From Taklimakanibacter albus (GTDB lineage: Bacteria > Pseudomonadota > Alphaproteobacteria > Rhizobiales > Aestuariivirgaceae), in NCBI RefSeq assembly GCF_016595235.1, contig NZ_JAENHL010000008.1:416390-480389 (forward strand): 64,000 bases of DNA. Direction: 5' to 3'. Shown here piece by piece: positions 38,708 through 51,819 of the stretch. Each line of letters begins with the position of its first letter. Position 1 is the first letter of the stretch. A program made the translations under genes and the position numbers. The notes below the pieces were generated by a model. It was not told the DNA's origin, did no database searches, and worked only from the letters and a program-made list of their open reading frames with translations.

Positions 38708-40591
38708 TCACTCGCGATAGTCGCGCGTCATCGCGCCTTCGGAAACATAACCATCGCGGACATCCTCTTCGAGGGCCTCGCGCGACCGGCGTGCCGGATC
38801 GCCCCAGCCACCGCCACCCGGCATCACGACCTTGACCCTGTCGCCCTCCCGGATCCGCACATTGGCGAATTTGCTCGGCGACACTTTGCCATAGACAGCG
38901 CGCGCATCGCGCCAATCGCGCTCGCCGTCGAGCATGAAACGCGTGCTCGCCAATCCTGCCGGCTTACCCTTGTGCAAGCCCCAGGGCGGCACCTGGTGCC
39001 GGTCGCCGACATGGCTGACCGTCACTTCGGGCGCCAGGCAGCGAATGGTCTTGCTCATGCCGAGCCCGCCGCGAAACTCTCCGGCACCTCCCGAATCGCA
39101 GACCAGCGACCAATCTTCGACGAGCCAGGGATAACGGATCTCATAGACCTCGACCGGAATGGTGCGGCAATTGCCGTTCATGCTGCCGACCGCGTCATTG
39201 CCATCGGCACCGGGCCGTCCGCCCCAGCCGACCGTGTGCAGGTCATAAGACGTATAATATTCGCCACTGTCGGGATGCGTGCCGCCGAACAGGAAGTTGG
39301 ACCAGGTACCGCCATCCGCAGCCGGCACGCGCTCCGGTACGGCGCCGGCAAGCGCGCCCAGAACCGTATAGACGATACGCGGATGGCATTCGGTGTTGCC
39401 GCCGACCGAGGGGGCCGGAAACTCGACATTGAGCAGCGAACCCGGCTCGACCAGCACCTTGATGGGACGGAAGCAGCCGGCATTCTTCGGAATGGTGAAA
39501 TCCGAGATCTGCAGGAAGGCGTTGAAGGACGCCGCCTGCGGAATGCTGAGCGGCGTGTTCATCGGCCCTTTCGTCTGCGGCGAGGTGCCGTGATAATCGA
39601 CAATCGCCTCGGCATCTTTCACGATGACGGTGACCTTGATGGTCAAACGCTCGGCCACGACACCGTCATCTTCCATGACGTCCTCGAAACTGTAGCGGCC
39701 ATTGGGAATCTCGGCGATTTCCGCCCGCATGCGCGCCTCGGAATAATCGAGGAGATCGGCGACGGTTTCCTCATAGGTGGCCATGCCATAACGCCCGATG
39801 AGATCGAGGAGCCGCTGCTCGCCCAGATCGACGGCGGCAATGAGCGCGCGGTAGTCGCCATAATTGGCGCGCGGGGTGCGGACATTGGCCAGCATCATCT
39901 TCCAGATGTCCGGGCAATCCTTGCCGGCGCGCTTGATTTTCACTGGTGGAATGCGCAGGCCTTCGGCGAAGGTCTCGGTCGCCTCGGCGAAGAAGCTGCC
40001 CGGCACCATGCCACCGATCTCGCCGATATGGCCGATCGCGCCGGCAAAGCCGACCAGCGCGCCATCGAGGAAGATCGGCTTGAGGAACGTATGCTCGGGT
40101 GTGTGCATGCCGCCGCGATAGGGATCGTTATGCACGATGACATCGCCTTCCGACATATCCGCGAGCGGGAACTCCTGCACGATCGCCCTCACGATGAGCG
40201 GCATGCCGCCGATCATCGATGGACAGAAATCGCCGACCGCGATCATCTCGCCTTTACGATCGAACAGGCCGCAGGTGAAATCGAGCGACTCGCTGAAGAT
40301 CGGCGAATAGGCCGTGCGCATCACCGTGACGCCCATATCGCGGCAGATCGAGGCGAGATTGCCGTCGAGAATGGTGAGGTCGACCACGCTGGTACGCCCG
40401 TCATAGCTCATCTTCGCTTTGGGCAAAGGCAGGCCGTGCGCCCGTTCCTCAGGCCCGGCGGAAAACCAGGAAGCGCACCATTCGCCGCAGAATTTGCGGC
40501 CATCATCCTTCGCCGCGCCATAGAGCAGCACGCCGCAATTGGCGCATTTGTCATAGGTCTCGACATAGAAGCCATTGCCGGAAAAACGCAT
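38708..40591 (-). CDS. hyuB: Hydantoinase B/oxoprolinase-family protein with N-terminal Cys motif
   Basis: 627 residues. The HyuB domain (about 60-610) contains GVTVMRTAYSPIFSESLDF, GDVIVHNDPYRGGMHTPEH and MPGGGGWGDP near the end. An N-terminal extension (1-59) carries C16-x2-C19 and C35-x3-C39, a zinc-finger-like set that most HyuB proteins lack. With HyuA it forms an ATP-dependent amidohydrolase acting on cyclic or linear amide substrates (5-oxoproline, hydantoins) or an ATP-dependent carboxylase; which one is unclear. It starts 2 bp after hyuA. Confidence 0.88.
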   Translation of the reverse strand: MRFSGNGFYVETYDKCANCGVLLYGAAKDDGRKFCGEWCASWFSAGPEERAHGLPLPKAKMSYDGRTSVVDLTILDGNLASICRDMGVTVMRTAYSPIFSESLDFTCGLFDRKGEMIAVGDFCPSMIGGMPLIVRAIVQEFPLADMSEGDVIVHNDPYRGGMHTPEHTFLKPIFLDGALVGFAGAIGHIGEIGGMVPGSFFAEATETFAEGLRIPPVKIKRAGKDCPDIWKMMLANVRTPRANYGDYRALIAAVDLGEQRLLDLIGRYGMATYEETVADLLDYSEARMRAEIAEIPNGRYSFEDVMEDDGVVAERLTIKVTVIVKDAEAIVDYHGTSPQTKGPMNTPLSIPQAASFNAFLQISDFTIPKNAGCFRPIKVLVEPGSLLNVEFPAPSVGGNTECHPRIVYTVLGALAGAVPERVPAADGGTWSNFLFGGTHPDSGEYYTSYDLHTVGWGGRPGADGNDAVGSMNGNCRTIPVEVYEIRYPWLVEDWSLVCDSGGAGEFRGGLGMSKTIRCLAPEVTVSHVGDRHQVPPWGLHKGKPAGLASTRFMLDGERDWRDARAVYGKVSPSKFANVRIREGDRVKVVMPGGGGWGDPARRSREALEEDVRDGYVSEGAMTRDYRE

Positions 40592-40593
40592 GA

Positions 40594-42621
40594 TCAGGCT
40601 CCCTTCTTGATCTCGAGATTGCCGAACATGTCGACAGTGAGGCTGTAGCCCGGACGAACGACGGTTACCGACACGTCCTCCTCGACCAGAGCCGGCCCGG
40701 CAAAGCCATGTCCTGAGGCCAAGTCCTGACGCCGATAGACCGGCGTCTCGAAGGTACCCACTTCGAATACGACCGTGCGTCGCGACGCCGGTTCCGCCTG
40801 GCTCTTTGCCTCGGCAATCCGCGGCAGCTCCGGTTTCGCCATGCGGGCGATGGCGGTGCAGCCGATATCGACGATTTCGATCGGCGCATCGGGCAGGCTG
40901 AAGCGATAACGCTCCTCGAACAGACGATGGAAGTCGCGCCAGACCGCCGCCATGCCCTCGGCCGTGAAGCGCTCGACGAAGATCGGCAGCGAGAGCTCGT
41001 AATTCTGTCCCAGATAACGCATCTGGAGCGAACGGGTCAGCTTGATCTCGCCATCATGGGCTTGCCGCCTGAGATCGTCGCTCACCGATTGCGCCAGCTC
41101 GGCCATGATGGCATTGGCGCGCGCGACATCGAAATTGCGCGAGTTTAGCAAGGTCGAACGGCGCCGGTCACTCCGCGCATCGGCCATGGTGAAGCCATAG
41201 GCCGAGAATTGCCCGGGATGGTTGGGCACGATGCCGAGCGGGATATTGGCGTCGTTGAGCAGATCACAGACATGGAGCGGCCCCGCCCCGCCATAGGTCA
41301 GAAGCGAGAACTGCCGCGGATCGTAGCCCTGCTCAATGAGCACGGCGCGCAAGGCACCGACCATGTTGTTGTTCATGATGCGGATAATGGCGAGGGCCGC
41401 CTCCTCCACGCTCCAGCCATGCGCCGCGGCTACGCTGCCAATGGCGCGCCGCGCCGCCTCGGCGTCGAGACGCATCTTGCCGCCCAGGAATGAGCCGGGA
41501 TCGATGCGGCCGAGCACGAGATTGGCGTCGGTGACGGTGGGCTCGGTGCCGCCGAAGCCGTAGCAGGCGGGACCCGGCCGGGCACCGGCGCTGCGCGGGC
41601 CGACATGAAGGCCGCCCACCTTGTCGAGCCAGGCGACCGAGCCGCCGCCCGCGCCAATGGTACGGATATCGATCATCGGCACCCGCAGTGGAATTCCGAA
41701 TTCGAGTTCGTAGTCATCGGTGAAGCGTTCCTGACCATCGACGACGATCGACACGTCGGTCGAGGTCCCGCCGATATCGAGGGTGGCGAGGTTGCGGATT
41801 CCCTTGGCGGTCGCCAGGTGTTTGGCGGCGATGACGCCGCCGGTCGGTCCCGACACCGCGAGATTGATCGGCCGTTCCTCCGCGGCCTCGGTCGAGACCT
41901 CGCTGCCGTTCGATTTCATCATGGCGACGCGGCCCGAAATGCCGGCAGCCATTGCGCGCTCGCGGAAGCTCTTCACCTGCTGCCTGACCAGCGGCTTGAT
42001 ATAGGCATCGGCGAGCGTCGTCATGGCGCGCTGGTCTTCCTTCCAGCGCGGATCAATCTCGAAGGAGAGCGACACCGGTAATCCGGGCGCTTCCTCTGCG
42101 AAGATATCGCGGATGCGCAATTCGTGATCCGGCCGGACGAAGGAGAACAGCAGATTGACGGCCACCGCCGCCACCTCGCCCTCGTCGCGCAGCCGCCCGG
42201 CGAGCGCGCGGATCTCCGCCTCATCGAGCGGGGCGAGGATACGTCCCTTATGATCGATGCGCTCTTTCACTTCGTAAGCATCGCGGCGCAGACAGAAGGG
42301 TTTGGGCTTCACCCAGGACAGATCATAGTGCGAGCGGCGATTGCCGCGCTGGATGAAGGGAACGTCGCGGAAGCCACGTGTCGCGATATAGGCGACGCGG
42401 GCGCCCCGCCTCTCGAGCAAGGCATTGGTGGCGACGGTGGTGCCGAGCCGGATCGAGGCGATGCGCGACAGGTCCTTGACCTGACTCAACCCCTCGATCA
42501 CTGCCGCCGTCGGATCGCCCGGTGTCGACAGCACCTTCCAGGCGCGCATGCCCTTGTCGCCGTCATAGAGCATGAAATCCGTGAAGGTGCCGCCCGTGTC
42601 TATTCCAATATGCAAGCTCAT
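40594..42621 (-). CDS. hyuA: Hydantoinase A/oxoprolinase-family protein
   Basis: 675 residues, full length. The nucleotide-binding start IGIDTGGTFTDFMLYDGDKG, LGTTVATNALLERRGARVAY and DIGGTSTDVSIV are diagnostic of the ASKHA-fold ATP-dependent HyuA. It pairs with HyuB. It lies 43 bp after the ribose-type permease gene, suggesting that the transported compound is the substrate. Confidence 0.9.
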   Translation of the reverse strand: MSLHIGIDTGGTFTDFMLYDGDKGMRAWKVLSTPGDPTAAVIEGLSQVKDLSRIASIRLGTTVATNALLERRGARVAYIATRGFRDVPFIQRGNRRSHYDLSWVKPKPFCLRRDAYEVKERIDHKGRILAPLDEAEIRALAGRLRDEGEVAAVAVNLLFSFVRPDHELRIRDIFAEEAPGLPVSLSFEIDPRWKEDQRAMTTLADAYIKPLVRQQVKSFRERAMAAGISGRVAMMKSNGSEVSTEAAEERPINLAVSGPTGGVIAAKHLATAKGIRNLATLDIGGTSTDVSIVVDGQERFTDDYELEFGIPLRVPMIDIRTIGAGGGSVAWLDKVGGLHVGPRSAGARPGPACYGFGGTEPTVTDANLVLGRIDPGSFLGGKMRLDAEAARRAIGSVAAAHGWSVEEAALAIIRIMNNNMVGALRAVLIEQGYDPRQFSLLTYGGAGPLHVCDLLNDANIPLGIVPNHPGQFSAYGFTMADARSDRRRSTLLNSRNFDVARANAIMAELAQSVSDDLRRQAHDGEIKLTRSLQMRYLGQNYELSLPIFVERFTAEGMAAVWRDFHRLFEERYRFSLPDAPIEIVDIGCTAIARMAKPELPRIAEAKSQAEPASRRTVVFEVGTFETPVYRRQDLASGHGFAGPALVEEDVSVTVVRPGYSLTVDMFGNLEIKKGA

Positions 42622-42664
42622 CGAACTCTCTTGTCTTGAACTGATGCGACCCGGCTCAACCCAC

Positions 42665-43651
42665 TCAGCGTTTCTTGCGCCGCATCTGATCCAGCCAGAC
42701 GATCAGTACGATCAGCGCACCGGCGATGATACGCTGCCAGAAGGGATTGATGTTGAGAAGATTGGCGCCGTTATTGATGGTGGTCAGCAGGAGCGATCCG
42801 AGGATCGGCCCCAGGACATTGCCGACGGCCCCGAAGAGACTGGCACCGCCGATCACCGCGGCGGCGATCGACTGCAGCTCCCAGGATTCGCCCGTCGTCG
42901 CGACGCCGATCGAGATGCGGCTGGCGGTGAGAATGCCGGCAAATGTCGCGCAGCTGGCCGAGGTGATGTAGACGAGATAGATCGTGCGCGAGATGCTGAC
43001 GCCGGACAGGCGCGCGGCCTCGGCATTGCTGCCGACGGCATAGATGTAGCGGCCCCAGCGCGTGTGATGGAGCAGCATGAAGGCCGGAATGGCGACGATC
43101 AGCGCCATCCAGGCGAGCGCCGGGATACCGAGGAAGCTCTCGCGCGAGAAATTCACGAATTCATCGGGAAGCCCGGTGATGGTCAACCCGTCGGTGAGCA
43201 GAAGGCCGATGCCACGCAAGCCGGTCATCGAAGCCAGCGTGATGATGAAGGGCGGCAATCCCATACGCAGAATGCCGAAAGCGTGGAAGGCGCCCACGAT
43301 GGGTCCGATCAGCATGGTGATCGCGACGGCCGCCCAGATGGGAAAGCCCGCCTTGAGCAGAATCGACACCACGGTGCTGGACAGGCCGACAATGGCGCCG
43401 ACCGACAGGTCGATGCCGCCGGTGATGATCACGAAAGTCTGCCCGATGGCGATGATCGCCCAAAGCGATGTCTGCCGCATGAGGTTGGTCATATTCTGGC
43501 CGGTGAGGAAGCTCTCGGTCGCGAGCGACAGAGCGATCCAGATCAACAGCAGAAGACCGAGCAGCGTGAGGCCGCGCAGAAACTCGAATTTGGACTTCGC
43601 CTTTTGCGGCGCCGGCGCATAGCCCTGGTCCGACGGCGTGTTCTCGCTCAT
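42665..43651 (-). CDS. Ribose-type ABC transporter permease
   Basis: 328 residues with about nine or ten membrane helices. FVIITGGIDLSVGAIVGLS (about 123-141) and IGGASLFGAVGNVLGPILG (about 268-286) are the signature of the RbsC/BPD_transp_2 family. It forms the channel for the transporter with the ATPase at 43908-45461 and the binding protein at 45488-46456. A repeat separates it from the ATPase gene. Confidence 0.93.
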   Translation of the reverse strand: MSENTPSDQGYAPAPQKAKSKFEFLRGLTLLGLLLLIWIALSLATESFLTGQNMTNLMRQTSLWAIIAIGQTFVIITGGIDLSVGAIVGLSSTVVSILLKAGFPIWAAVAITMLIGPIVGAFHAFGILRMGLPPFIITLASMTGLRGIGLLLTDGLTITGLPDEFVNFSRESFLGIPALAWMALIVAIPAFMLLHHTRWGRYIYAVGSNAEAARLSGVSISRTIYLVYITSASCATFAGILTASRISIGVATTGESWELQSIAAAVIGGASLFGAVGNVLGPILGSLLLTTINNGANLLNINPFWQRIIAGALIVLIVWLDQMRRKKR

Positions 43652-43730
43652 TCAACGTTCCTCAAAGCTGGTTCGCGTCCGGTTTCGATGCGGGGCAATC
43701 GCGTACGCGTTGGGCAAGGCCTCCCCCAGT

Positions 43731-43876
43731 TTCCCCCTCTCCCGTCCGCAGGATGGGAGAGGGTGCCCGACAGGGCGGGTGAGGGCTCTTCCGATTGCGC
43801 GGCTAGATCAAGAAAAGAGCCCTCATCCGGCCTTCGGCCACCTTCTCCCATTGCTTTGCAACGGGAGAAGGGGAAA
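43731..43876. repeat. Double-hairpin intergenic repeat (about 150 bp), copy 2
   Basis: Left hairpin CCCTCTCCC (43735-43743) with GGGAGAGGG (43755-43763); right hairpin CCTTCTCCC (43841-43849) with GGGAGAAGG (43863-43871). The shared core GTGCCCGACAGGGCGG and the inverted CCGGCCTTCGGCCAC match copy 1 at 2849-2995, but arm order shows the opposite orientation. It splits the ABC transporter genes and may change expression of the permease and hyuAB relative to the ATPase. Confidence 0.8.
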
Positions 43877-43907
43877 ATCTGGTAAGACTGATCGCTTTCA
43901 AAGAACT

Positions 43908-45461
43908 TCATCGGCGACTTCCCTGCGTTTCGATGGCATCGCCGAGAATGACGTCATGCCCGACCTCGCCCGCCGCATAGGCTGCCACCTGGCGGCCGGC
44001 CCGGAAGACATGCAGCGTGTCGCAAAGATCGTAGACTTCCGGCAGATAGGACGAGATCATGATGATCCCCGCCCCCTTCTTCAGAAGCTCGGCGAAGATC
44101 TTGTAGATCTGCACCTTGGTGCCGACATCGACGCCGACCGTCGGCTCGTCGAAGATGAAGAGATCGGCGCCGTGGTTGAGCCACTTGCCGATCACGATCT
44201 TCTGCTGATTACCGCCCGAGAGCGTGAAGGCCTGGGCATGCCGGCCGGCGGTGGCGATGGCGAGATCGCTGATCTGCTTTTCGACTGCGGCGCGCTCGGC
44301 ACCACGCTGCACCAGGCCCATCGGGCTGAGGCGCTGGAAGATCGGCAAAGCGAGATTGAAGCCGACATCGAGATTAAGACAGAGGCCCTGATCGCGGCGG
44401 CTTTCGGGAACGAGAACGATGCCGTTACGGATGGCATCCGCTTCCGAGCTTATCTTCACCGGCGTGCCGCGCAGGGACACTCGTCCGGCGGTCTTGGGCT
44501 GGCGGCCATACAGACATTGCACGAACTCGCTGCGCCCGGCCCCGATCAGGCCGTAAAGGCCGACGATCTCGCCGCGCCGCACGGTGAGCGAGACATTCTT
44601 GAAGCCCGGTCCCGACAGGCCGGCGACTTCGAGCAGCAGCTCGCCCTTTTCTATCGCTTCCTTATGATGAACCTGTTCGATCGAACGCGCGACCATGTCG
44701 CGGATCAACTGCGCCTGACTGGTCTCGCCGATGGCGCGGCTCGCCACCAGTTGCCCGTCGCGCAGGACCGAGACCCGGTCGGCGAGCTCGAAAATCTCTT
44801 CCAGCCGGTGGCTGATATAGACGATGGTCACGCCTTCGCGCTTGAGACGCCGGATCAACGAGAAGAGCAGATCCGTTTCGCCGCGCGCCAGATAGGCGGT
44901 CGGCTCATCGAAGATGAGAAGCTTCGTGCCCCGCATCGCCGCGCGTGCGGCGGCGACCAGTTGCTGCTGGCCGATGGTCAGGCTGTTGAGGGGGGCCGCC
45001 GCCGGCAGCCTGAAGCCCAGATCGTCGAGCGTCGCCTGCGCCCGCTGGATCATGGCGCGCTGGCGCAAGAGACCGTAACCCTGCTCCTCGATGCCGAGGA
45101 ACATATTGGCCGCGACGCTCAAATGCGGGCAGAGCACGACTTCCTGATGGACAGCATTGATGCCGAGGCCGAGCGCCTCCTGGGGTGACCGGAGGCCGAT
45201 TTCGCGACCTTCCCACAAGATGGTGCCGGAGCTCTTTTCATGAGCGCCGGTCAGGATCTTGATCAGCGTCGATTTACCGGCGCCATTCTCGCCGACAATG
45301 GCGTGGATCTCGCCTTTGTTCAGCGTCAGATCGATGCCCTTCAAGGCATGCGTGCCGATGAAGCGTTTATGAACCGCCTTGAGTTCGACCAAGGGCGCAT
45401 TCGAGCCCCCCGCCGCATGGGGCGGCGAGGGAGCAGACGTGAGCGGCTTGGTCGGAGGCAT
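43908..45461 (-). CDS. Ribose-type ABC transporter ATPase (double NBD)
   Basis: 517 residues from the ATG at 45461; a TTG ten codons upstream at 45491 overlaps the binding-protein stop. Two nucleotide-binding domains: Walker A GENGAGKST (57-65) in the first, and a degenerate GLIGAGRSE in the second, as usual for RbsA/MglA proteins. LSGGNQQKIVIGKWL is the second-domain signature. It energises sugar-type import with the neighbouring permease. Confidence 0.92.
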   Translation of the reverse strand: MPPTKPLTSAPSPPHAAGGSNAPLVELKAVHKRFIGTHALKGIDLTLNKGEIHAIVGENGAGKSTLIKILTGAHEKSSGTILWEGREIGLRSPQEALGLGINAVHQEVVLCPHLSVAANMFLGIEEQGYGLLRQRAMIQRAQATLDDLGFRLPAAAPLNSLTIGQQQLVAAARAAMRGTKLLIFDEPTAYLARGETDLLFSLIRRLKREGVTIVYISHRLEEIFELADRVSVLRDGQLVASRAIGETSQAQLIRDMVARSIEQVHHKEAIEKGELLLEVAGLSGPGFKNVSLTVRRGEIVGLYGLIGAGRSEFVQCLYGRQPKTAGRVSLRGTPVKISSEADAIRNGIVLVPESRRDQGLCLNLDVGFNLALPIFQRLSPMGLVQRGAERAAVEKQISDLAIATAGRHAQAFTLSGGNQQKIVIGKWLNHGADLFIFDEPTVGVDVGTKVQIYKIFAELLKKGAGIIMISSYLPEVYDLCDTLHVFRAGRQVAAYAAGEVGHDVILGDAIETQGSRR

Positions 45462-45487
45462 CAAGGCAGTCCCGTTTTGCCGTCGGC

Positions 45488-46456
45488 TCAATCGATCTTC
45501 GGCGTGAGCAGTTCCTGCGAGCGCGGCTCGTTCATGTTCTCCTTGGTGATGACATTGACGCCGGTATCGACATTGGCCGGCACCTGCTCACCCTTCGAAG
45601 CCGCATGAGCGATCTTCACCGATTCATACCCCATGCGAAACGGGTCCTGCACGATGAGGGCCGTGACGACGCCATCGGCGAGACGTTTGACGAGCTGATC
45701 GTTGCTGTCGAAGGCGACGACCTTGATCTTGTCTTCCATTTTGTTCTCGGCGACGGCCTGGCTGACGCCCAGCGCCATTTCCTCAGAGCTCGCGAAAGCG
45801 CCGCGCAGATTGGGCTTCGCCAGGATCACATCGTTCATCATATTGAGGCCGGTGGTGATCTGGCCGTCGGCAACCTTGTCGGCGACGATGGTGATGCCCG
45901 GATATTTCTCGGCGAGGACTTCCTTGAAGCCCTGGGCGCGCTGATCGAGAGAGCCGGCACCCGGAACCGACGTGATGAGCATTACTTCGCCTTCGGCCTT
46001 GCCATAGGTCTTTTCGATGGCCTGCGCCAAAGCTTCGCCCGCGGCGCGGCCGCCGGCGACATTGTCGGTGGTGACGAAGGACGCATAGGACTTGCTGTTG
46101 GCGCCTGAATCGACACCGATCACCTTGGTCTTGCCGGCGGCTTCATCGATCGGCTTGCCCAACGCTTCGAACTGCGAGGCGGCGATCACGATGGCCAAAG
46201 GATTATTGGCGGCGGCGCTTTCCAGGATGGAGATCTGGCCGGTGATATCGGTATCGTTCTGCGGTCCGAGCTCCGGCACCTTGATGTTCAGTTCCTTGCC
46301 GGCCTTGCGGGCGCCGGCAAGCAATACCCGCCAATAATAAGTCGATGTGTTCTTGACGATGACCGGAATGGTGTCTTCCGCCCAGCTGGTGGACGGCGCG
46401 ACCATAGAAAGAGTGAGGCTCGCGGCGAGCGCCGCGACGACCGAAAATTTCCGCAT
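45488..46456 (-). CDS. Ribose-type ABC transporter solute-binding protein
   Basis: 322 residues from the ATG at 46456 (GGGAG eight bases upstream). A signal peptide runs to about residue 25 (STSWA). The mature part is a type I periplasmic-binding protein of the Peripla_BP_4 family: VIVKNTSTYYWRVLLAGARK, LAIVIAASQFEALG, VIGVDSG, MLITSVPGAGSLDQRAQGF. The hinge residues fit a sugar, amino sugar or furanose-like ligand. First gene of the ABC-hyuAB series, 118 bp after the DHDPS-family gene. Confidence 0.92.
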   Translation of the reverse strand: MRKFSVVAALAASLTLSMVAPSTSWAEDTIPVIVKNTSTYYWRVLLAGARKAGKELNIKVPELGPQNDTDITGQISILESAAANNPLAIVIAASQFEALGKPIDEAAGKTKVIGVDSGANSKSYASFVTTDNVAGGRAAGEALAQAIEKTYGKAEGEVMLITSVPGAGSLDQRAQGFKEVLAEKYPGITIVADKVADGQITTGLNMMNDVILAKPNLRGAFASSEEMALGVSQAVAENKMEDKIKVVAFDSNDQLVKRLADGVVTALIVQDPFRMGYESVKIAHAASKGEQVPANVDTGVNVITKENMNEPRSQELLTPKID

Positions 46457-46574
46457 GTTCCAACTCCCTTGTTTATTATGCTGGATAGGCGCGTAACCGC
46501 TCGCCGTGCCGAGAGCGCAGCGGCGAGCCTTCCTTTGCCGCCCGCTTGTCGCGCGGACGTCTCTCAGTTCCCTG

Positions 46575-47471
46575 TCAGGCCGCTTTGCGCGCGAGCGCTG
46601 CAATGGCTTCCTGGATGATCGCCGACGCCTCGCGCCGGTCGGCGTCGGCGAGCGGCAGCCGCGGACGACGCACCGCATCGGGCGCGCCATAGACGAGATG
46701 TTCGGCAAGCTTGATGTACTGGACCAGCTTGACGCTGGTATCGAGATGGAAGGACGGCGTCAGGATGCGGTAGAGCTTCCGCGCTTCATCGAAATTTCCA
46801 TCGCGGCACAGATTGAACAGACGCACGCATTCCGCGGGCCAGGCATTGGTCATGCCGGAAACCCAGCCGGTGACGCCCAGCGCCACGCTTTCGAGGATGA
46901 GGTCGTCGACGCCGCAGAACACCGCGTACCGGTCGCCGACGCGGTTGTAGATGTCGGTGATGCGCCGGATGTCGCCGCTCTCTTCCTTGATGCAGACGAT
47001 GGTCTTCACATCGGCGAGCTGCGCCAGCTCTTCGGGGCCGACATCGACGCGATACGCGATCGGATTGTTGTAGATCATGATGGGGAGCCCGGAAGCGCCG
47101 CCGACGGCGCGATACCAGGCCACCGTCTCACGCGAGTCGGTGCGGTAAGCGAGGCTCGGAAACACCATGAGACCTTCGGCGCCAAGCTTCTCGTAGTTGC
47201 GCGCCGCCTTGACCGCATCTTCCTCCGAGAGTTCGGCTAGGCCGGAGAGAAGCGGCACGCGGCCGGCGACGACTTCCTTCGCAGCAGTCACCACCGCGTC
47301 GCGCTCGGCCTGGCGCAGCGAGGCATTCTCACCCAGCATCGGCAGGACGATCACGCCCGACACGCCATTGGCGATCAGCCGGTCGAGGCTGGCCTGGGTC
47401 GCCTTGATGTCGATCTCACCGTCGCTCCGCATTTTCGTGGTCACGGCAGGAAAAACACCAGTCCAGGACAT
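46575..47471 (-). CDS. DHDPS/NAL-family aldolase or deaminase
   Basis: 298 residues, a complete TIM barrel. Y134 (in IYNNP) and the Schiff-base lysine K162 (in CIKEES) are present. The usual GTTGE loop reads PMLGEN (44-49). The subfamily (GVFPAVTTKM, RITDIYN, FCGVDDLILES, VKLVQYIKLAEH) is, from memory, closest to 1-pyrroline-4-hydroxy-2-carboxylate deaminases rather than lysine-pathway DapA. A keto-deoxy-sugar-acid aldolase is an alternative given the adjacent UxaA-type dehydratase. It is divergent from a GntR regulator. Confidence 0.85.
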   Translation of the reverse strand: MSWTGVFPAVTTKMRSDGEIDIKATQASLDRLIANGVSGVIVLPMLGENASLRQAERDAVVTAAKEVVAGRVPLLSGLAELSEEDAVKAARNYEKLGAEGLMVFPSLAYRTDSRETVAWYRAVGGASGLPIMIYNNPIAYRVDVGPEELAQLADVKTIVCIKEESGDIRRITDIYNRVGDRYAVFCGVDDLILESVALGVTGWVSGMTNAWPAECVRLFNLCRDGNFDEARKLYRILTPSFHLDTSVKLVQYIKLAEHLVYGAPDAVRRPRLPLADADRREASAIIQEAIAALARKAA

Positions 47472-47528
47472 GTCTCAGCTCTCCATTTGCAAGGGGATGG
47501 TTCCACTAGGCGGAACCAAGGAATGTCT

Positions 47529-47540
47529 AATGCATACATT
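47529..47540. promoter_or_regulatory. Candidate GntR operator, site 1
   Basis: AATGCATACATT, a palindrome of form AATG-N4-CATT, in the divergent gap between the DHDPS-family gene and the GntR gene. The same form recurs at 48294-48305. Binding by the neighbouring GntR regulator is inferred from recurrence and location. Confidence 0.55.
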
Positions 47541-47625
47541 TTGAGGTCCGCCCTTGCAAGAACTTTGTCAAAAAGCTAGAAAACCAAGAAGATCAGGGCG
47601 GCGAACAACCGAGTCTCTCGTGAAA

Positions 47626-48264
47626 ATGGATACAAAAATCAGTGATGTGGGCACCGCAGCCACGCAGGCCGCCCGCGAGATCAGACGGCGAATCATCAGT
47701 GGCGCCTATCCGAGCGGTATGCGCCTGCATCAGGAGAATATCGCCGCCGAGCTCGGCGTCAGCCGCAGCCCGGTGCGCGAAGCGTTCCGCCAGCTCGAAG
47801 CCGAGGGGCTCGTCATCCTCACCTCGCAGAAAGGCGGCAAGGTCGCGCCTATCCGCGCCGAGGAAGTCGTGGAGCTGTTCGAGCTGCGGCTCCTGATCGA
47901 GCCGCATCTGCTGGCGCTCGCGGTGCCCAATTTCACCGATGCGGACGTGGCGGCGGCTGAAAAGATCATCGCCGAAATGGACGGTATCGATGTCGCGCAA
48001 TGGGCGGAGGCGAACTGGCGGCTCCATATGGCCTTCTACGAACCCGCCAGGCGGCCGACCACGACGCGCCAGCTCGAGCGTATCCATTCCGGCATCGACC
48101 GTTATCTGCGCATGCAGATCACCCTCACCGAAGGCCGCGACCGCGCTCATACCGACCACAAGGCAATTCTCTCGGCCTGCCGTAATCACGACGCCGAACT
48201 GGCGGTCGCCCTGCTCAGAAGTCACATCCTCGCCGCCGCCCGCGCATTCGTGCCGGCGGGCTGA
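47626..48264 (+). CDS. GntR-family regulator (FadR/FCD subfamily)
   Basis: 212 residues from the ATG at 47626; a GTG two codons earlier and a TTG at 47554 are alternatives. The winged helix-turn-helix (about 10-75) has REIRRRIISGAYPSGMRLHQ and ELGVSRSPVREAFRQLEAEG. The C-terminal FCD domain binds a carboxylate-type effector, with metal-ligand candidates in WRLHMAFYE, DHKAIL and LRSHI. It lies between the DHDPS-family gene and the UxaA-type dehydratase and is the obvious regulator of both. Confidence 0.93.
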   Translation: MDTKISDVGTAATQAAREIRRRIISGAYPSGMRLHQENIAAELGVSRSPVREAFRQLEAEGLVILTSQKGGKVAPIRAEEVVELFELRLLIEPHLLALAVPNFTDADVAAAEKIIAEMDGIDVAQWAEANWRLHMAFYEPARRPTTTRQLERIHSGIDRYLRMQITLTEGRDRAHTDHKAILSACRNHDAELAVALLRSHILAAARAFVPAG

Positions 48265-48293
48265 GACCTCTGCGTCCATCCATTTTTCTGCAT

Positions 48294-48305
48294 AATGTGT
48301 GCATT
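48294..48305 (+). promoter_or_regulatory. Candidate GntR operator, site 2
   Basis: AATGTGTGCATT (AATG-N4-CATT), 13 bp before the dehydratase ATG and only two bases upstream of its GGAG ribosome site. A bound repressor here would block transcription start or elongation. Matches site 1 at 47529-47540 in form. Confidence 0.55.
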
Positions 48306-48317
48306 CCGGAGATGACA

Positions 48318-49832
48318 ATGGCAAATGCTCCCCTGCTGAGACTGTCGCCGACCGATCAGGTGGCGGTCGCTCTGTCCGCCATTGCCAGCGGCACCCCCCT
48401 TGCTCCCGTCTCGACTGCTGCCGCCATGAACGACATCCCGGCCGGTCACAAAGTCGCTCTCTCTGCGATCAGCGAAGGCGCGGAGGTCTTCCGGCTCGGA
48501 CAGCCGATCGGGCTGGCGGCGCGGGCGATCGCCGCCGGCGAGCATGTGCATATTCACAATCTCAGCTATCCGGGCTCGCTCGCCGACCCCAAGATCACCG
48601 TGACTCGAAGGGCCAGCCCCACGCAAAAAGAGATTCCGACATTTCTCGGCTTCCGGCGCGCCGATGGCCGCGTCGGCACGCGCAATTATGTCGGCGTGCT
48701 CACCACGGTGAATTGTTCGGCGCGGGTCGCCAAGCTGATCGCCGGACATTTCAACGGCCCGCAGGCGCACGGCAAAGTCGACGGCGTCGTCGCTCTGACG
48801 CACAGTTCCGGCTGCAGCGTTTCCGACGGCAGCCCGTCGATGGACATGCTGAGGCGCACGATCGCCGGCTATGCGCGCAATCCGAATTTCGCCGGCGTGC
48901 TCATTGTCGGGCTCGGCTGCGAAGACAATCAGATCGATCTTCTCTGCGCGCAGGAAGGATTGGCGCTCGACGGGCGCGTGCGCAGCCTCGGCATCCAGGA
49001 CACCGGCGGCACCACCCGCACCGTCCAGGCCGGCATCGCCATTGTCGAGCAGCTGGTCGCCGAGGCGAGCCTCGCGCGCCGCGAGGCCGTGCCGGTCAGC
49101 GAGCTGATCGTCGGCCTGCAATGCGGCGGCTCCGACAGTTTCTCCGGGCTTACCGCCAATCCGGCGCTCGGCGCCGCCGTCGACATCCTGGTCGGCTATG
49201 GCGGCACCGCCATCCTCTCGGAGACGACCGAGATTTACGGCGCCGAGAATCTGCTGCTGCAGCGTGTCGCCAATGACGATGTCGGCCGCCGGCTGATCGG
49301 CCTTCTCGACTGGTGGAAAGATTATACGGCCAAGGAGCCGAAGGGCTTCGACAACAACCCCTCGCCCGGCAACAAGGCCGGCGGACTCACCACCATCCTC
49401 GAAAAGTCCTTAGGCGCCGTCGCCAAGGGCGGCTCGACGACGTTGATGGAAGTCTATCACTATGCCGAACGCGTCGCGGAAAAGGGCCTCGTCTTCATGG
49501 ATTCGCCGGGCTACGACCCGGTCTCGGCCACGGGCCAGGTCGCCGGTGGCGCCAATCTCATCTGCTTCACGACCGGGCGCGGCTCCTGTTTCGGCTGCCG
49601 TCCTTCGCCGTCGCTGAAGCTCGCGACCAATTCGGCGCTCTTCGCCCATATGGAAGACGACATGGACATCAATTGCGGGGTCATCCTCGATCAGGGAATC
49701 TCGATCGAGGAGATGGGGCGGGAAATCTTCGCGCGCATGGTCCGCACCGCATCGGGCGAGCCGACCAAGAGCGAGATACTGGGTTATGGCGATGATGAAT
49801 TCGCGCCGTGGCATATCAATGCGTGGCTGTAA
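48318..49832 (+). CDS. UxaA/GarD-family sugar-acid dehydratase
   Basis: 504 residues from the ATG at 48318 (GGAG six bases upstream; another ATG at 48312). An N-terminal SAF-like domain (about 1-90) is fused to the UxaA catalytic domain. FRRADGRVGTRNYVGVLTTV, THSSGC, GLGCED, LQCGGSDSFSG and SCFGCRPSPSLKLATN are conserved and include the metal-binding Cys/His residues. The family dehydrates altronate, galactarate or related aldonates/aldarates. It lies downstream of the GntR gene and is convergent with ctlX (1-bp gap). Confidence 0.92.
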   Translation: MANAPLLRLSPTDQVAVALSAIASGTPLAPVSTAAAMNDIPAGHKVALSAISEGAEVFRLGQPIGLAARAIAAGEHVHIHNLSYPGSLADPKITVTRRASPTQKEIPTFLGFRRADGRVGTRNYVGVLTTVNCSARVAKLIAGHFNGPQAHGKVDGVVALTHSSGCSVSDGSPSMDMLRRTIAGYARNPNFAGVLIVGLGCEDNQIDLLCAQEGLALDGRVRSLGIQDTGGTTRTVQAGIAIVEQLVAEASLARREAVPVSELIVGLQCGGSDSFSGLTANPALGAAVDILVGYGGTAILSETTEIYGAENLLLQRVANDDVGRRLIGLLDWWKDYTAKEPKGFDNNPSPGNKAGGLTTILEKSLGAVAKGGSTTLMEVYHYAERVAEKGLVFMDSPGYDPVSATGQVAGGANLICFTTGRGSCFGCRPSPSLKLATNSALFAHMEDDMDINCGVILDQGISIEEMGREIFARMVRTASGEPTKSEILGYGDDEFAPWHINAWL

Positions 49833-49833
49833 T

Positions 49834-50757
49834 TCAATCGCGCGGCGCCAGATGTATGCCGGCGAGCGTGCAGCGCACCGATCCCCCCGCCATCTCGATC
49901 GTCGGAATGTCGAGCGCGGCGATCTTCACAGATGCCTCGATACGAGCGATCTGCTCGCAGGTGAGCGCCGCATGAGCGGTGCGTGATAGCGCCAGGATCC
50001 GTCCGTCCCGGCCCTGCAGCTCGATCGCATTGCCGGCGAAACGCGCGATCTGGCCGCGATCGAGTGCGATGACATCGCGGCCCGACTGCTCCAGGCGCCG
50101 CACCACCTTCTGCCAGCCCTCGGGACCGACCATCAAATCGGTGCCGATCATGGCAAAGTCGGTGGCGACGCACATCAGCACATTGGTGTGATAGACCGGC
50201 ACACCCTTGGCGTCTTCGGCCGGAAAGACGATGGGCTCGAAATTGAAATGGGTGCAGAAGCGCTCAAGCGCGACCGGGTTGGTGCGATCGGATTTCACCG
50301 CATAGGCGACCCGGTCGATATGGTCGAGCACCATGGACCCCGTGCCTTCCAGGAAGAGTCCGTCGGGCTCCAGTCCGGAATAGTCGATCACATCCTGAAC
50401 ACGGTACTGGCGCTTCAGCATTTCGATGATATCCGTCCGGCGCTCCTTGCGCCGGTTCGGCGCTTTCATCGGATAGATGGCGATGTGGCCGCCGGCATGG
50501 GTCGAGAACCAGTTGTTCGGAAAGACCGCGTCCGGCGTATCGGTCCCGGCATCCTCGAAGAGATGAACGCCGACGCCCAGATCGCGCAGCATCTCGGCGG
50601 CCCGGGTGATTTCCTGATAGGCACAGGCCGCATGATCGGCACTTTCAGAGACGTCGCGCTGGAAGGCATTGTCGACCGCCGTCTGGGTGTTGATCGTGAA
50701 ATGATGCGGACGCACCATCACGACCGCGGTGGGCGCCTGGGGCGAAGGGATCGCCAT
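49834..50757 (-). CDS. ctlX: Citrulline hydrolase/amidinotransferase-fold protein CtlX
   Basis: 307 residues, one pentein-fold domain. The pentein motifs are visible: PDAVFPNNWFSTHAGG, EGTGSMVLDH, YHTNVLMCV and the C-terminal nucleophile C296 in GGSVRC. CtlX proteins convert citrulline to ornithine with release of ammonia and CO2. The next gene encodes ornithine cyclodeaminase 12 bp upstream, giving a direct citrulline-ornithine-proline route. Arginine-deiminase-like activity is a weaker alternative. Confidence 0.88.
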   Translation of the reverse strand: MAIPSPQAPTAVVMVRPHHFTINTQTAVDNAFQRDVSESADHAACAYQEITRAAEMLRDLGVGVHLFEDAGTDTPDAVFPNNWFSTHAGGHIAIYPMKAPNRRKERRTDIIEMLKRQYRVQDVIDYSGLEPDGLFLEGTGSMVLDHIDRVAYAVKSDRTNPVALERFCTHFNFEPIVFPAEDAKGVPVYHTNVLMCVATDFAMIGTDLMVGPEGWQKVVRRLEQSGRDVIALDRGQIARFAGNAIELQGRDGRILALSRTAHAALTCEQIARIEASVKIAALDIPTIEMAGGSVRCTLAGIHLAPRD

Positions 50758-50769
50758 CGAGCCAGTCCC

Positions 50770-51819
50770 TTATGCCGCCCGGGCGCGCTGCAGCATGCCG
50801 AAGAGATCGCGCGGATCATCCGGATCGGCGATCATGTCGAGCAACTCGGCGCAATCGGTCCCCACGAGCCGGTCACGCACATAACGCAGCGCGGAGAAAT
50901 CCTCGATGGCGAAGCCGACGCCATCGAACAAGGTCAGCTGACGATCCGAAACACGTCCCTTCGCCTTGCCGGTGATGACTTCCCACATTTCGACAACCGG
51001 AAAATCGGCCGGCATCTGCTGGATGTCGCCTTCGATGCGGGTCTGCGGCGGATATTCGACGAAGACATCGGCGCGGCACAGAATATCGGGATGGATCTCG
51101 GTCTTGCCGGGGCAATCGCCGCCAATGGCGTTGATATGGACGCCGGCGCCGATCATATTGTCGGTGAGGATGGTGGCATATTGCTTGTCGGCAGTGCAGG
51201 TGGTGATGATGCCGGCGCCTTCGATCGCCTCCTCGGCGGTGCGGCAGCTCGTCACCTCGAGACCGAGCGGCGCCAGATTGCGATGGGCCTTGCGGGTCGC
51301 CGCCGGATCGATGTCGTAAAGCCGGACCGCCTCGATGCCGCAGATCGCCCGCATGGCCATGGCCTGAAACTCGGCCTGGGCGCCGTTGCCGATCAGCGCC
51401 ATGGTGCGCGTGCCCTTGGGCGCCAGATGCCGCGCCACCATGGCGGAGGTCGCCGCGGTGCGCAGAGCAGTGAGCAGCGTCATTTCGGTGAACAGCACGG
51501 GATAACCGGTCGCGACTTCGGCAAGCAGGCCGAGCGCCGTTACGGTCTGGAGACCTTCCCGGGTATTCTTGGGATGGCCGTTCACATATTTGAAGCCATA
51601 GACTTCACCGTCCGAGGTCGGCATTAGCTCGATGACGCCGTCGCGGGAATGGCTCGCCAGGCGCGGCGTCTTGTCGAACAGCTCCCAGCGGCGGAAATCC
51701 GCCTCGATATAGTCGGCAAGCTCCTTGAGGGCCGTCTCGACCCCGATCTGATGCACAAGGCGCATCATGTTCTCGACGCTCACGAAAGGCACGAAAGCCT
51801 GGGGGGACGGTTCAAGCAT
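50770..51819 (-). CDS. ocd: Ornithine cyclodeaminase
   Basis: 349 residues. The mu-crystallin/OCD family is shown by K77 (GFKYVN), LRTAATSAMVARHLAPK (about 120-136), the NAD-binding IGNGAQ (143-148) and INAIGGDCPGKTE with the catalytic Asp. It converts ornithine to proline and ammonia with bound NAD. It is transcribed away from an Lrp/AsnC regulator. The length is that of Agrobacterium OCD. Confidence 0.93.
   Translation of the reverse strand: MLEPSPQAFVPFVSVENMMRLVHQIGVETALKELADYIEADFRRWELFDKTPRLASHSRDGVIELMPTSDGEVYGFKYVNGHPKNTREGLQTVTALGLLAEVATGYPVLFTEMTLLTALRTAATSAMVARHLAPKGTRTMALIGNGAQAEFQAMAMRAICGIEAVRLYDIDPAATRKAHRNLAPLGLEVTSCRTAEEAIEGAGIITTCTADKQYATILTDNMIGAGVHINAIGGDCPGKTEIHPDILCRADVFVEYPPQTRIEGDIQQMPADFPVVEMWEVITGKAKGRVSDRQLTLFDGVGFAIEDFSALRYVRDRLVGTDCAELLDMIADPDDPRDLFGMLQRARAA

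Follow-up and report, generated by a model that had tools for sequence, protein, structure and literature searches.

A locus of eight genes was found within the window, the whole stretch of 64,000 nucleotides from Taklimakanibacter albus that was analysed here. On balance we favour reading it as an operon under GntR control for the catabolism of a polyhydroxylated lactam, i.e. an oxidised iminosugar, which would be degraded via Δ1-pyrroline-4-hydroxy-2-carboxylate (Pyr4H2C). All enzyme activities, the substrate and its stereochemistry are predicted from the genes. A polyol lactam is the likely substrate class, and as the exact substrate we tentatively propose a five-carbon 1,5-lactam, namely a 5-amino-5-deoxypentono-1,5-lactam (a 3,4,5-trihydroxypiperidin-2-one).

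According to this proposal the pyranose-like lactam would enter through a CUT2 ABC importer. HyuAB together with a zinc-finger-like part, here referred to as the finger, would activate the amide with ATP and hydrolyse the ring to 5-amino-5-deoxypentonate, from which the GarD/UxaA-type enzyme would take water off C2/C3. The resulting 5-amino-4-hydroxy-2-oxopentanoate would close on itself to Pyr4H2C, to be converted by the DHDPS-superfamily deaminase into alpha-ketoglutarate semialdehyde and ammonia, and an unlinked aldehyde dehydrogenase would yield alpha-ketoglutarate. Two results count against this pathway: the window locus contains no semialdehyde dehydrogenase, and all 10 genomic candidates fell short of the KGSA dehydrogenase model's cut-off. 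The initial annotation had suggested that the substrate, for example a cyclic amide or a nitrogen-containing sugar acid, needs ATP for amide opening as well as dehydration of an acid sugar; gene families and context are consistent with each of these.

Open reading frames were found for all eight genes with the coordinates and strands of that annotation. The Pfam cut-offs were far exceeded for Hydantoinase_B, Hydantoinase_A (with its N- and C-domains), BPD_transp_2, ABC_tran, Peripla_BP_4, DHDPS, GntR-FCD and GD_AH (galactarate/altronate dehydratase). Translation likely starts inside the ORFs at 46456 for the binding protein, 47626 for the GntR regulator and 48312 or 48318 for the dehydratase, and the double-ATPase may start at TTG 45491 or, more likely, at ATG 45461. 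The permease and ATPase genes are separated by a 256-bp gap (43652..43907, minus strand) with a REP-like palindrome (RNA fold -127.3 kcal/mol, z -6.5). This was not regarded as part of the pathway. With at most 2 mismatches the repeat core was matched at 45 places across the genome, and the reversed control gave 0. The downstream genes for CtlX (citrulline hydrolase) and ornithine cyclodeaminase (49834-51819) were set aside as well. They recur in the same-genus strain (L025, L034) and were not found in 21.9 kb of Bauldia; the Nitratireductor loci extend just ~0.7 kb past garD, and both genes may still be present there.

The complete eight-gene set was also found in Rhizobiales bacterium Y(2018) of the same genus, Bauldia litoralis (Kaistiaceae), Nitratireductor arenosus and N. 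alexandrii (Phyllobacteriaceae), with identities of ~63% or more per gene and ~55% for the small N-terminal finger. Among 49 loci (L034-L082) fetched by the HyuB finger motif, all eight genes were present in 4, exactly those with a HyuB 77-97% identical, and in none of the 45 with a HyuB of at most 59% identity, several of which lie on short contigs. This distribution argues for a gene arrangement beyond chance. The gene-neighbourhood comparison thus bears out the earlier suggestion of one catabolic unit kept elsewhere, which would have been contradicted by a set confined to this genome; instead, four further loci carry it. The Bauldia locus additionally contains a class III aminotransferase, among the relatives of which are GABA and acetylornithine transaminases.

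Two partial sets speak against the pathway. S. meliloti 4H41 carries finger-HyuAB, a GarD orthologue and a fragment of the ALDH, and the deaminase was not matched within its 21.9 kb locus. For G006 (GarD 60%) hyuAB and deaminase were both unmatched in 19 kb. The hyuAB loci of the R. leguminosarum type (L014, L030, L033, L038) were rejected as the same set and taken as a different pathway, since the DHDPS enzyme of L014 is just 29% identical over 141 residues and the L033 enzyme falls outside the deaminase clade, on a very long branch. In A. vitis (L015, L069) finger-HyuAB occurs alongside an aminotransferase and gluconokinase.

The GntR-FCD regulator (47554..48264, plus strand; PF07729, PF00392) has orthologues with 56-97% identity in L034-L037 and L150. 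The palindrome AATGNNNNCATT was found at 11 sites in six loci, ahead of dhdps/gntR, garD or hyuA; of these six, the five beyond the window contain no further copy. In the window itself the candidates are AATGCATACATT (47529..47540), located in the promoter region serving both the six-gene operon and gntR, and AATGTGTGCATT (48294..48305) directly ahead of the dehydratase gene. We infer that the palindrome would be the GntR operator. Neither the shared operator nor the zinc-finger-like domain of HyuB had been mentioned in the initial annotation. In a genome of Bauldia's family (G320) the locus carries the same palindrome and combines the deaminase (74%), GntR (56%) and GarD (64%) with a HyuAB of just 35-37% identity. 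It also holds a TRAP permease, a type that usually transports acids, and this was counted against the lactam pathway.

Judged by the tree and by the neighbours of its homologues, the DHDPS-superfamily enzyme (46575..47471, minus strand; PF00701) falls in the Pyr4H2C-deaminase clade of hydroxyproline catabolism. In the tree, built without any biochemically assayed Pyr4H2C deaminase and read at its inner clades only because of long outgroup branches, the enzyme falls among the five rows of a clade of this locus type (95/88), the sister of which has four rows and contains hydroxyproline-associated enzymes. K162, by analogy with DapA the probable Schiff-base lysine, is invariant in the alignment, as expected for the DHDPS superfamily. 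A Pro_racemase gene was located within 10.5 kb, a limit set after the coordinates had been seen, for 21 of 35 homologues from 34 other genomes and within 5 kb for 19, as compared with a chance expectation of ~1% by our own arithmetic from simple geometry (about two Pro_racemase genes in 5 Mb). All 34 genomes with a homologue contain a Pro_racemase gene, versus 85 among the 289 genomes sampled overall. Against the pathway, 14 of the 35 homologues have no such gene near on their contig.

Four plasmid homologues were examined for their surroundings. Three of these (L083, 69%; L084, 57%; L085, 52%) are clustered with genes for a GntR regulator, an FAD oxidoreductase and either a proline-racemase-family protein or a 4-hydroxyproline epimerase; the adjacent epimerase and oxidase of L083 are broken, and an intact proline racemase is located 5 kb away. 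The fourth (L086, 48%) adjoins arabinofuranosidase and sugar-transport genes without an epimerase, which speaks against the pathway. The S. meliloti 2011 hydroxyproline/epimerase locus, fetched as a characterised reference, contained no homologue within 14 kb on each side, and this too counts against the pathway. The initial annotation had named retro-aldol cleavage or deamination. Membership in the Pyr4H2C-deaminase clade favours deamination to alpha-ketoglutarate semialdehyde, and a role as a generic aldolase was not upheld. A profile search of solved structures returned just entries named dihydrodipicolinate synthase or putative such; a role as retro-aldolase or DapA/NanA/KDG-aldolase was set aside, since the NCBIfam models all stayed under their cut-offs and the clade does not include E. 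coli DapA, NanA and YagE.

Passages of PMC4113996 describe trans-4-hydroxy-L-proline catabolism by 4HypE, D-amino acid oxidase, Pyr4H2C deaminase and KGSA dehydrogenase. What the window locus has in common with it is the deaminase clade and, by prediction, the last intermediates; however, it lacks a hydroxyproline epimerase or imino-acid oxidase beside the deaminase, and Pyr4H2C would here come from a sugar lactam by HyuAB and the GarD-type dehydratase. Both Pro_racemase genes of the genome are on contig C7 and the locus is on C8. As the hydroxyproline epimerase and a DAO-type oxidase of this genome lie on another contig than the locus, with no deaminase match adjoining them, the window enzyme could contribute to hydroxyproline catabolism in trans; the locus would then join unrelated genes, with HyuAB and GarD in separate routes. 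We consider this highly unlikely, given that the eight genes stay together in the same-genus strain, Bauldia and Nitratireductor, that G320 keeps deaminase, GntR, GarD and palindrome despite another HyuAB, and that the genome holds two more deaminase homologues (67% and 48% identical). Stereochemistry counts against our preferred lactam route: by our own reasoning a D-pentonate leads to 4S-Pyr4H2C and hydroxyproline to 4R, so that an L-configured C4 or an altered specificity would be required.

HyuB (627 aa; 38708..40591, minus strand; PF02538, 582 bits) and HyuA (675 aa; 40594..42621, minus strand; PF01968, PF05378, PF19278) are the putative hydrolytic and ATP-binding subunits of a predicted ATP-dependent lactamase. 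Their Hydantoinase_A and Hydantoinase_B domains place them in the HyuAB family, members of which hydrolyse lactams according to passages of PMC8453981. The HyuA translation carries DTGGTFTD, DIGGT and GARPGP, matching the phosphate- and adenosine-binding motifs DxGGTxTD, DxGGT and GxxPGP of HyuA-type subunits given there. The two-subunit architecture and ATP motifs are common to the caprolactamase CapAB of that paper. However, HyuA and HyuB reached just 516.5 and 321.5 bits with the caprolactamase alpha and beta models (NF050156/NF050157; cut-off 1000), which are the nearest named ones, and do not qualify as CapAB. Moreover, the window HyuAB adds the finger as a third part. This N-terminal extension of HyuB (~aa 1-62; 40406..40591, minus strand), delimited by alignment, has a zinc-finger-like CxxC...CxxxC pattern. 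In many relatives it is a free-standing small gene beside hyuB, with distinct matches in L016 and L026, annotated genes in L030 and L033 and further cases in many of L034-L082.

The aligned metal tetrad of HyuB is D104-H163-E166-H188. The window HyuB and all 55 close relatives (at least 50.7% identity) have Asp-His-Glu-His, as opposed to Asp-His-Asp-His in 17 of 17 distant ones (at most 38.4%). The Glu is at the aligned position of Asp102, called fully conserved in a passage of PMC8453981. CapB lies outside the HyuB alignment, and its positions were assigned from the spacing of H99 and H124, equal to that of H163 and H188. The change from Asp to Glu is conservative. The finger-HyuAB subfamily comprises 55 sequences here, some from near-identical strains; its hosts are mostly alphaproteobacteria, besides other proteobacteria, a Bacillus and a haloarchaeon.

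A gabT gene at least 70% identical to that of Shinella neighbours finger-HyuAB in 10 of the 49 loci, and in 9 of these SSADH is present too, as the breakdown of 2-pyrrolidone would need. These operons (Shinella, Mesorhizobium and others) share the finger-HyuAB subfamily but differ by a branched-chain amino-acid-type importer, 4-aminobutyrate transaminase and SSADH, and 2-pyrrolidone is their predicted substrate. Carboxylation, offered earlier as the alternative to amide opening, was therefore set aside: these sister operons carry a GABA transaminase, the caprolactamase models are nearest, and the best solved relatives of HyuA are N-methylhydantoinase and 5-oxoprolinase, ahead of carboxylases.

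The predicted acid-sugar dehydratase (48297..49832, plus strand; PF20629, PF04295, SAF) belongs to the UxaA/GarD superfamily by its GD_AH domains and Cys 140, 173, 208 and 276, which all 17 aligned rows share. It scored 370 bits with the galactarate dehydratase model TIGR03248, below the cut-off of 730.85. Its homologues from the same-genus strain, Bauldia, Nitratireductor, S. meliloti 4H41 and G320 form a 100/100 clade with it. A close GarD was present in 4 of 397 genomes, and in three of the four (the own genome, Bauldia and G320) hyuAB and the deaminase adjoin; this coupling evidence is independent of HyuB as the starting point.

The importer consists of a ribose-type permease (42665..43651; PF02653), a double-ATPase (43908..45491; PF00005) and a periplasmic sugar-type binding protein (45488..46456, inside the ORF 45488-46708; PF13407), all on the minus strand, and is probably of CUT2 type, by family only. 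The best NCBIfam models were ribose permease (224.8 bits) and AraG (471 bits) for the permease and the ATPase, both under their cut-offs. A ribose importer is not indicated, the scores for RbsB, RbsA and RbsC being 112, 435 and 225 bits versus cut-offs of 337, 745 and 398. The hydrophobic N-terminus of the binding protein looks by eye like a signal peptide, and its structure prediction was poor (pLDDT 40.6). Its closest solved structure is 4rxt (377 bits over 298 residues), the ligand of which is presumably D-arabinose. Furthermore, it shares 59% identity with a binding protein from S. meliloti. The locus encoding the latter also has aldo/keto reductase, HpaI aldolase, gabD and a dehydratase of 55% identity, and is similar to the D-arabinose clusters in passages of PMC6336799.

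Both binding-protein matches would fit a plain non-phosphorylative route of the D-arabinose/L-fucose type, in which a pentose is imported, GarD acts on the aldonate as a dehydratase, the 2-keto-3-deoxy acid undergoes dehydration or cleavage by the DHDPS enzyme and HyuAB has a side reaction. In passages of PMC6336799 such a D-arabinose pathway uses a UxaA/GarD-superfamily D-arabinonate dehydratase and, by Route II, ends at alpha-ketoglutarate semialdehyde as well. In S. meliloti Ak57 a gene for such a dehydratase adjoins those of a related CUT2 importer. However, the window dehydratase is just ~55% identical to that of Ak57, and the eight conserved genes lack a sugar dehydrogenase and lactonase and include HyuAB and an amine-handling deaminase of the hydroxyproline-associated clade. 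Probes for aldo/keto reductase, alcohol dehydrogenase and SDR were unmatched in L034-L037, and HyuAB adjoins the close GarD in three of four genomes, with a different HyuAB in G320, which makes this route unlikely. A six-carbon polyol lactam (hexono-1,5-lactam, e.g. oxidised nojirimycin or a fuco-iminosugar) could reach a 2,5-dioxo acid by the same sequence of reactions. Hexonates are among the substrates of the GarD superfamily (passages of PMC6336799), and garD of Bauldia adjoins an RraA-like aldolase and an aminotransferase that might be needed for a longer chain. We nevertheless find it improbable, since the product would not be alpha-ketoglutarate semialdehyde, the conserved genes include no enzyme for a 2,5-dioxo acid and the deaminase clade belongs to the five-carbon hydroxyproline route.

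We know of no such sugar-lactam pathway, and none is described in the titles and abstract openings among the matches listed in a literature search that covered few subscription journals. It seems evenly balanced whether the locus represents an undescribed pathway leading polyhydroxy-piperidinones into the hydroxyproline route via Pyr4H2C, driven by a new three-part lactamase subfamily (zinc-finger-like component, Glu metal ligand) whose other members would act on 2-pyrrolidone and further sugar-like lactams. Opening five- and six-ring lactams enzymatically under mild conditions is of biotechnological interest according to a passage in PMC11033972. If the proposal is true, a vague annotation as 'DHDPS plus hydantoinase' would become a testable pathway of four steps, the HyuAB subfamily of 55 sequences would gain a function-based handle, and soil and plant-associated bacteria would have a route to use iminosugar-type lactams as carbon and nitrogen.

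The eight genes, which the initial annotation had placed at 38708..49832 and assigned to families, were confirmed as ORFs and by their Pfam families. The genes hyuB, hyuA, permease, ATPase, binding protein and dhdps form a single minus-strand operon with gaps, from hyuB to dhdps, of 2, 43, 256, -4 and 118 bp, and gntR and the dehydratase gene garD are divergent from it. A REP-like palindrome lies in the 256-bp gap between permease and ATPase (43652-43907). Its core matches the genome at 45 places, and a second copy of this core is located at 2941-2970 of the window. Flagellar and two-component genes form one flank of the locus. On the other flank (49834-51819) the gene for a citrulline hydrolase CtlX (399.7 bits) adjoins that for an ornithine cyclodeaminase (578.8 bits), both above the cut-off and likely representing a citrulline-to-ornithine-to-proline pair. 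This pair was present again in the same-genus strain Y(2018) and absent from the locus stretch fetched for Bauldia litoralis.

To analyze the spread of the set, 84,980 species genomes were scanned with the zinc-finger-like HyuB motif (CxxC...CxxxC, here referred to as finger), which is an extension of HyuB in the window and a separate small gene adjoining hyuB in many relatives. The scan yielded 49 loci. The gene-neighbourhood check suggested initially found the complete set in four of these, from other genomes of three genera, with HyuB at least 77% identical. These were: Rhizobiales bacterium Y(2018) of the same genus (all eight genes 96-99% identical, finger 89%), Bauldia litoralis (Kaistiaceae; 63-83%, finger 55%) and Nitratireductor arenosus and N. 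alexandrii (Phyllobacteriaceae; 66-81%, finger 55%). None of the remaining 45 finger loci (HyuB at most 59%) carried it. The gene order was the same in the full-set loci with the exception of Bauldia, where the dehydratase gene is placed after hyuB with a class III aminotransferase gene in between. Orthologous HyuB (97-100%) was found in 2 of 69 family genomes, the window's own included, and a match at 1e-240 or below in three of 397 order genomes: the own one, Bauldia and G072, a genome with a 61% identical HyuB and no dehydratase or deaminase matches. The eight-gene system is a real unit which is rare and patchy, a distribution that fits spread by horizontal transfer.

Coupling of the genes was also seen when the search started from the dehydratase instead of HyuB. 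The GarD proteins of the window, the same-genus strain, Bauldia, Nitratireductor, S. meliloti 4H41 and genome G320, of the same family as Bauldia, formed a 100/100 clade. Among the 397 order genomes four close matches were found, in the own genome, Bauldia, G320 (65%) and G006 (60%), and all but G006 carry hyuAB and the deaminase gene next to garD. In G320 the deaminase (74%), GntR (56%) and dehydratase (64%) are conserved, whereas the HyuAB pair is only 35-37% identical, with no finger match. The lactamase has been swapped there and its partners retained. The G320 locus also carries a second DHDPS gene, a class II aldolase, a TRAP permease and an ALDH gene. In G006 an ALDH gene adjoins garD, with no hyuAB or deaminase matches in 19 kb. 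Strain 4H41 carries finger-HyuAB and GarD (68%), but no deaminase match in 21.9 kb; an aldehyde dehydrogenase gene is truncated in this locus (L046, 5540-6346).

In four loci, those of the window, the same-genus strain and the two Nitratireductor species, the palindrome AATGNNNNCATT precedes both the dhdps operon and garD. A single copy is present in Bauldia, where garD lies inside the operon, and in G320 it is found upstream of garD and hyuA. These 11 sites in six loci are not all independent, since four of the loci are two near-identical pairs. The other five loci hold no further copy; the 64-kb window holds four copies (0.82 expected), two of them outside the locus sites. The palindrome is likely a GntR operator.

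The hydroxyproline route is described in PMC4113996, along with the superfamily to which its Δ1-pyrroline-4-hydroxy-2-carboxylate (Pyr4H2C) deaminase belongs. Of the 282 plasmid records that match the DHDPS-family enzyme of the window (here named deaminase), four were examined for their neighbouring genes. Three homologues, from R. leguminosarum GLR17 (69%), Burkholderia (56.6%) and Thalassospira (52%), share a cluster with proline-racemase-family or 4-hydroxyproline-epimerase, FAD oxidoreductase and GntR genes; the fourth (R. brockwellii, 48%) had no epimerase-type cluster in its surroundings. In GLR17 (L083, 8966-9796) epimerase and oxidase are broken and the adjoining deaminase is intact. 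A class-wide sample contained 35 homologues (at least 44% identity) across 34 other genomes. A Pro_racemase gene was located within 10.5 kb of 21 (within 5 kb of 19), namely 1/2 at 60% identity or more, 6/7 at 50-59% and 14/26 below 50%; the other 14 had none nearby on their own contig. All 34 homologue-bearing genomes carried a Pro_racemase gene, compared with 85 of 289 genomes overall.

In a tree whose rows did not include an assayed Pyr4H2C deaminase or keto-deoxy-arabonate dehydratase, the window enzyme and its four locus-mates formed a clade (95/88). Its sister clade (95/89) comprised an own-genome paralogue (67%), the GLR17 enzyme and two more. Both were nested in a 41-row clade (84/92) that left the E. 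coli enzymes and one from R. ruizarguesonis outside. Judged by tree and Pro_racemase neighbours, the window enzyme is of the hydroxyproline type. The initial interpretation was partly right: one catabolic unit is supported, conserved in the four full-set loci, and the generic DHDPS role has to be revised. The own genome carries two further deaminase paralogues (67% and 48%), the former beside an SDR, a GntR (60% to that of the window) and an aminoglycoside/hydroxyurea-kinase-family gene (L096, 7130-10413). An own-genome epimerase on contig C7 adjoins a DAO-type oxidase, with no deaminase match beside it. Alpha-ketoglutarate semialdehyde dehydrogenase is absent from the locus, and none of the 10 genome relatives of its model at 1e-100 or below was above the cut-off.

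Passages of PMC8453981 describe Asp102 of the caprolactamase CapB as a metal ligand and fully conserved. In contrast, the HyuB of the window carries Glu at the matched position. Glu was found there in all 55 other HyuB of at least 50.7% identity and Asp in 17/17 of at most 38.4%, and the link of finger and Glu is partly a matter of selection, as most loci were fetched via the finger motif. Two loci from another search (L017, L031) carried a Glu-bearing HyuB with no finger match within 3 kb. In 10 of the 49 finger loci (L039-L041, L043-L045, L048, L050, L076 and L077; Shinella, Mesorhizobium, uncultured Rhizobium and Achromobacter) the operon included a GABA transaminase at least 70% identical to that of Shinella, in nine together with SSADH; the importer is of the branched-chain amino-acid type. 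These neighbours point to 2-pyrrolidone as the substrate there and suggest candidate 2-pyrrolidone operons. Such operons of sister HyuAB support a lactamase over a carboxylase role, and the carboxylation considered initially is disfavoured.

Further finger-HyuAB loci differ in composition. The own genome, with 11 Hydantoinase_A matches altogether, carries a second pair (L026, 10806-14670; contig C8 near 650800-654670) with the finger as a separate match after hyuB and a GntR gene. Two Agrobacterium vitis-group plasmids (L015, L069) combine finger-HyuAB with a CUT2 importer, aminotransferase, LacI, SDR and gluconokinase, a candidate for a further sugar-lactam system. In R. leguminosarum-type loci (L014, L030, L033, L038) a CUT2 importer, finger-HyuAB and SDR lie near a distant DHDPS gene; several of these loci also encode a DegT aminotransferase, a shikimate-DH-like protein and GarD. 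Their logic is similar to that of the window, but the DHDPS belongs to another clade.

Ring closure of 5-amino-4-hydroxy-2-oxopentanoate gives Pyr4H2C, and GarD/UxaA-type dehydratases convert 2,3-dihydroxy acids into 2-keto-3-deoxy acids. One superfamily member dehydrates D-arabinonate in this way, according to passages of PMC6336799. A hydroxyproline-type deaminase together with GarD chemistry would imply, deduced backwards from Pyr4H2C, 5-amino-5-deoxypentonate as dehydratase substrate. HyuAB would release it from its 1,5-lactam, a trihydroxypiperidin-2-one, and the dehydratase product 5-amino-4-hydroxy-2-oxopentanoate would be handed to the deaminase as its ring Pyr4H2C. The pentopyranose-like lactam would be taken up by the CUT2 importer. 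Its resemblance to a pentopyranose fits the binding protein, which is closest to 4rxt, whose ligand we take to be D-arabinose. The binding protein also shares 59% identity with its counterpart in an S. meliloti locus whose genes resemble a D-arabinose set. We infer that a D-pentonate would lead to 4S-Pyr4H2C and hydroxyproline to the 4R form; this mismatch would require an L-configured C4 (e.g. L-xylo) or an altered specificity.

The component families are known, and neither the gene combination nor the HyuAB subfamily was found described in the open literature searched. Naming trihydroxypiperidin-2-one as the exact lactam is a bold guess that can be put to the test. The best reading of the genes predicts a conserved polyol-lactam pathway that would proceed via hydroxyproline chemistry and is probably GntR-controlled.
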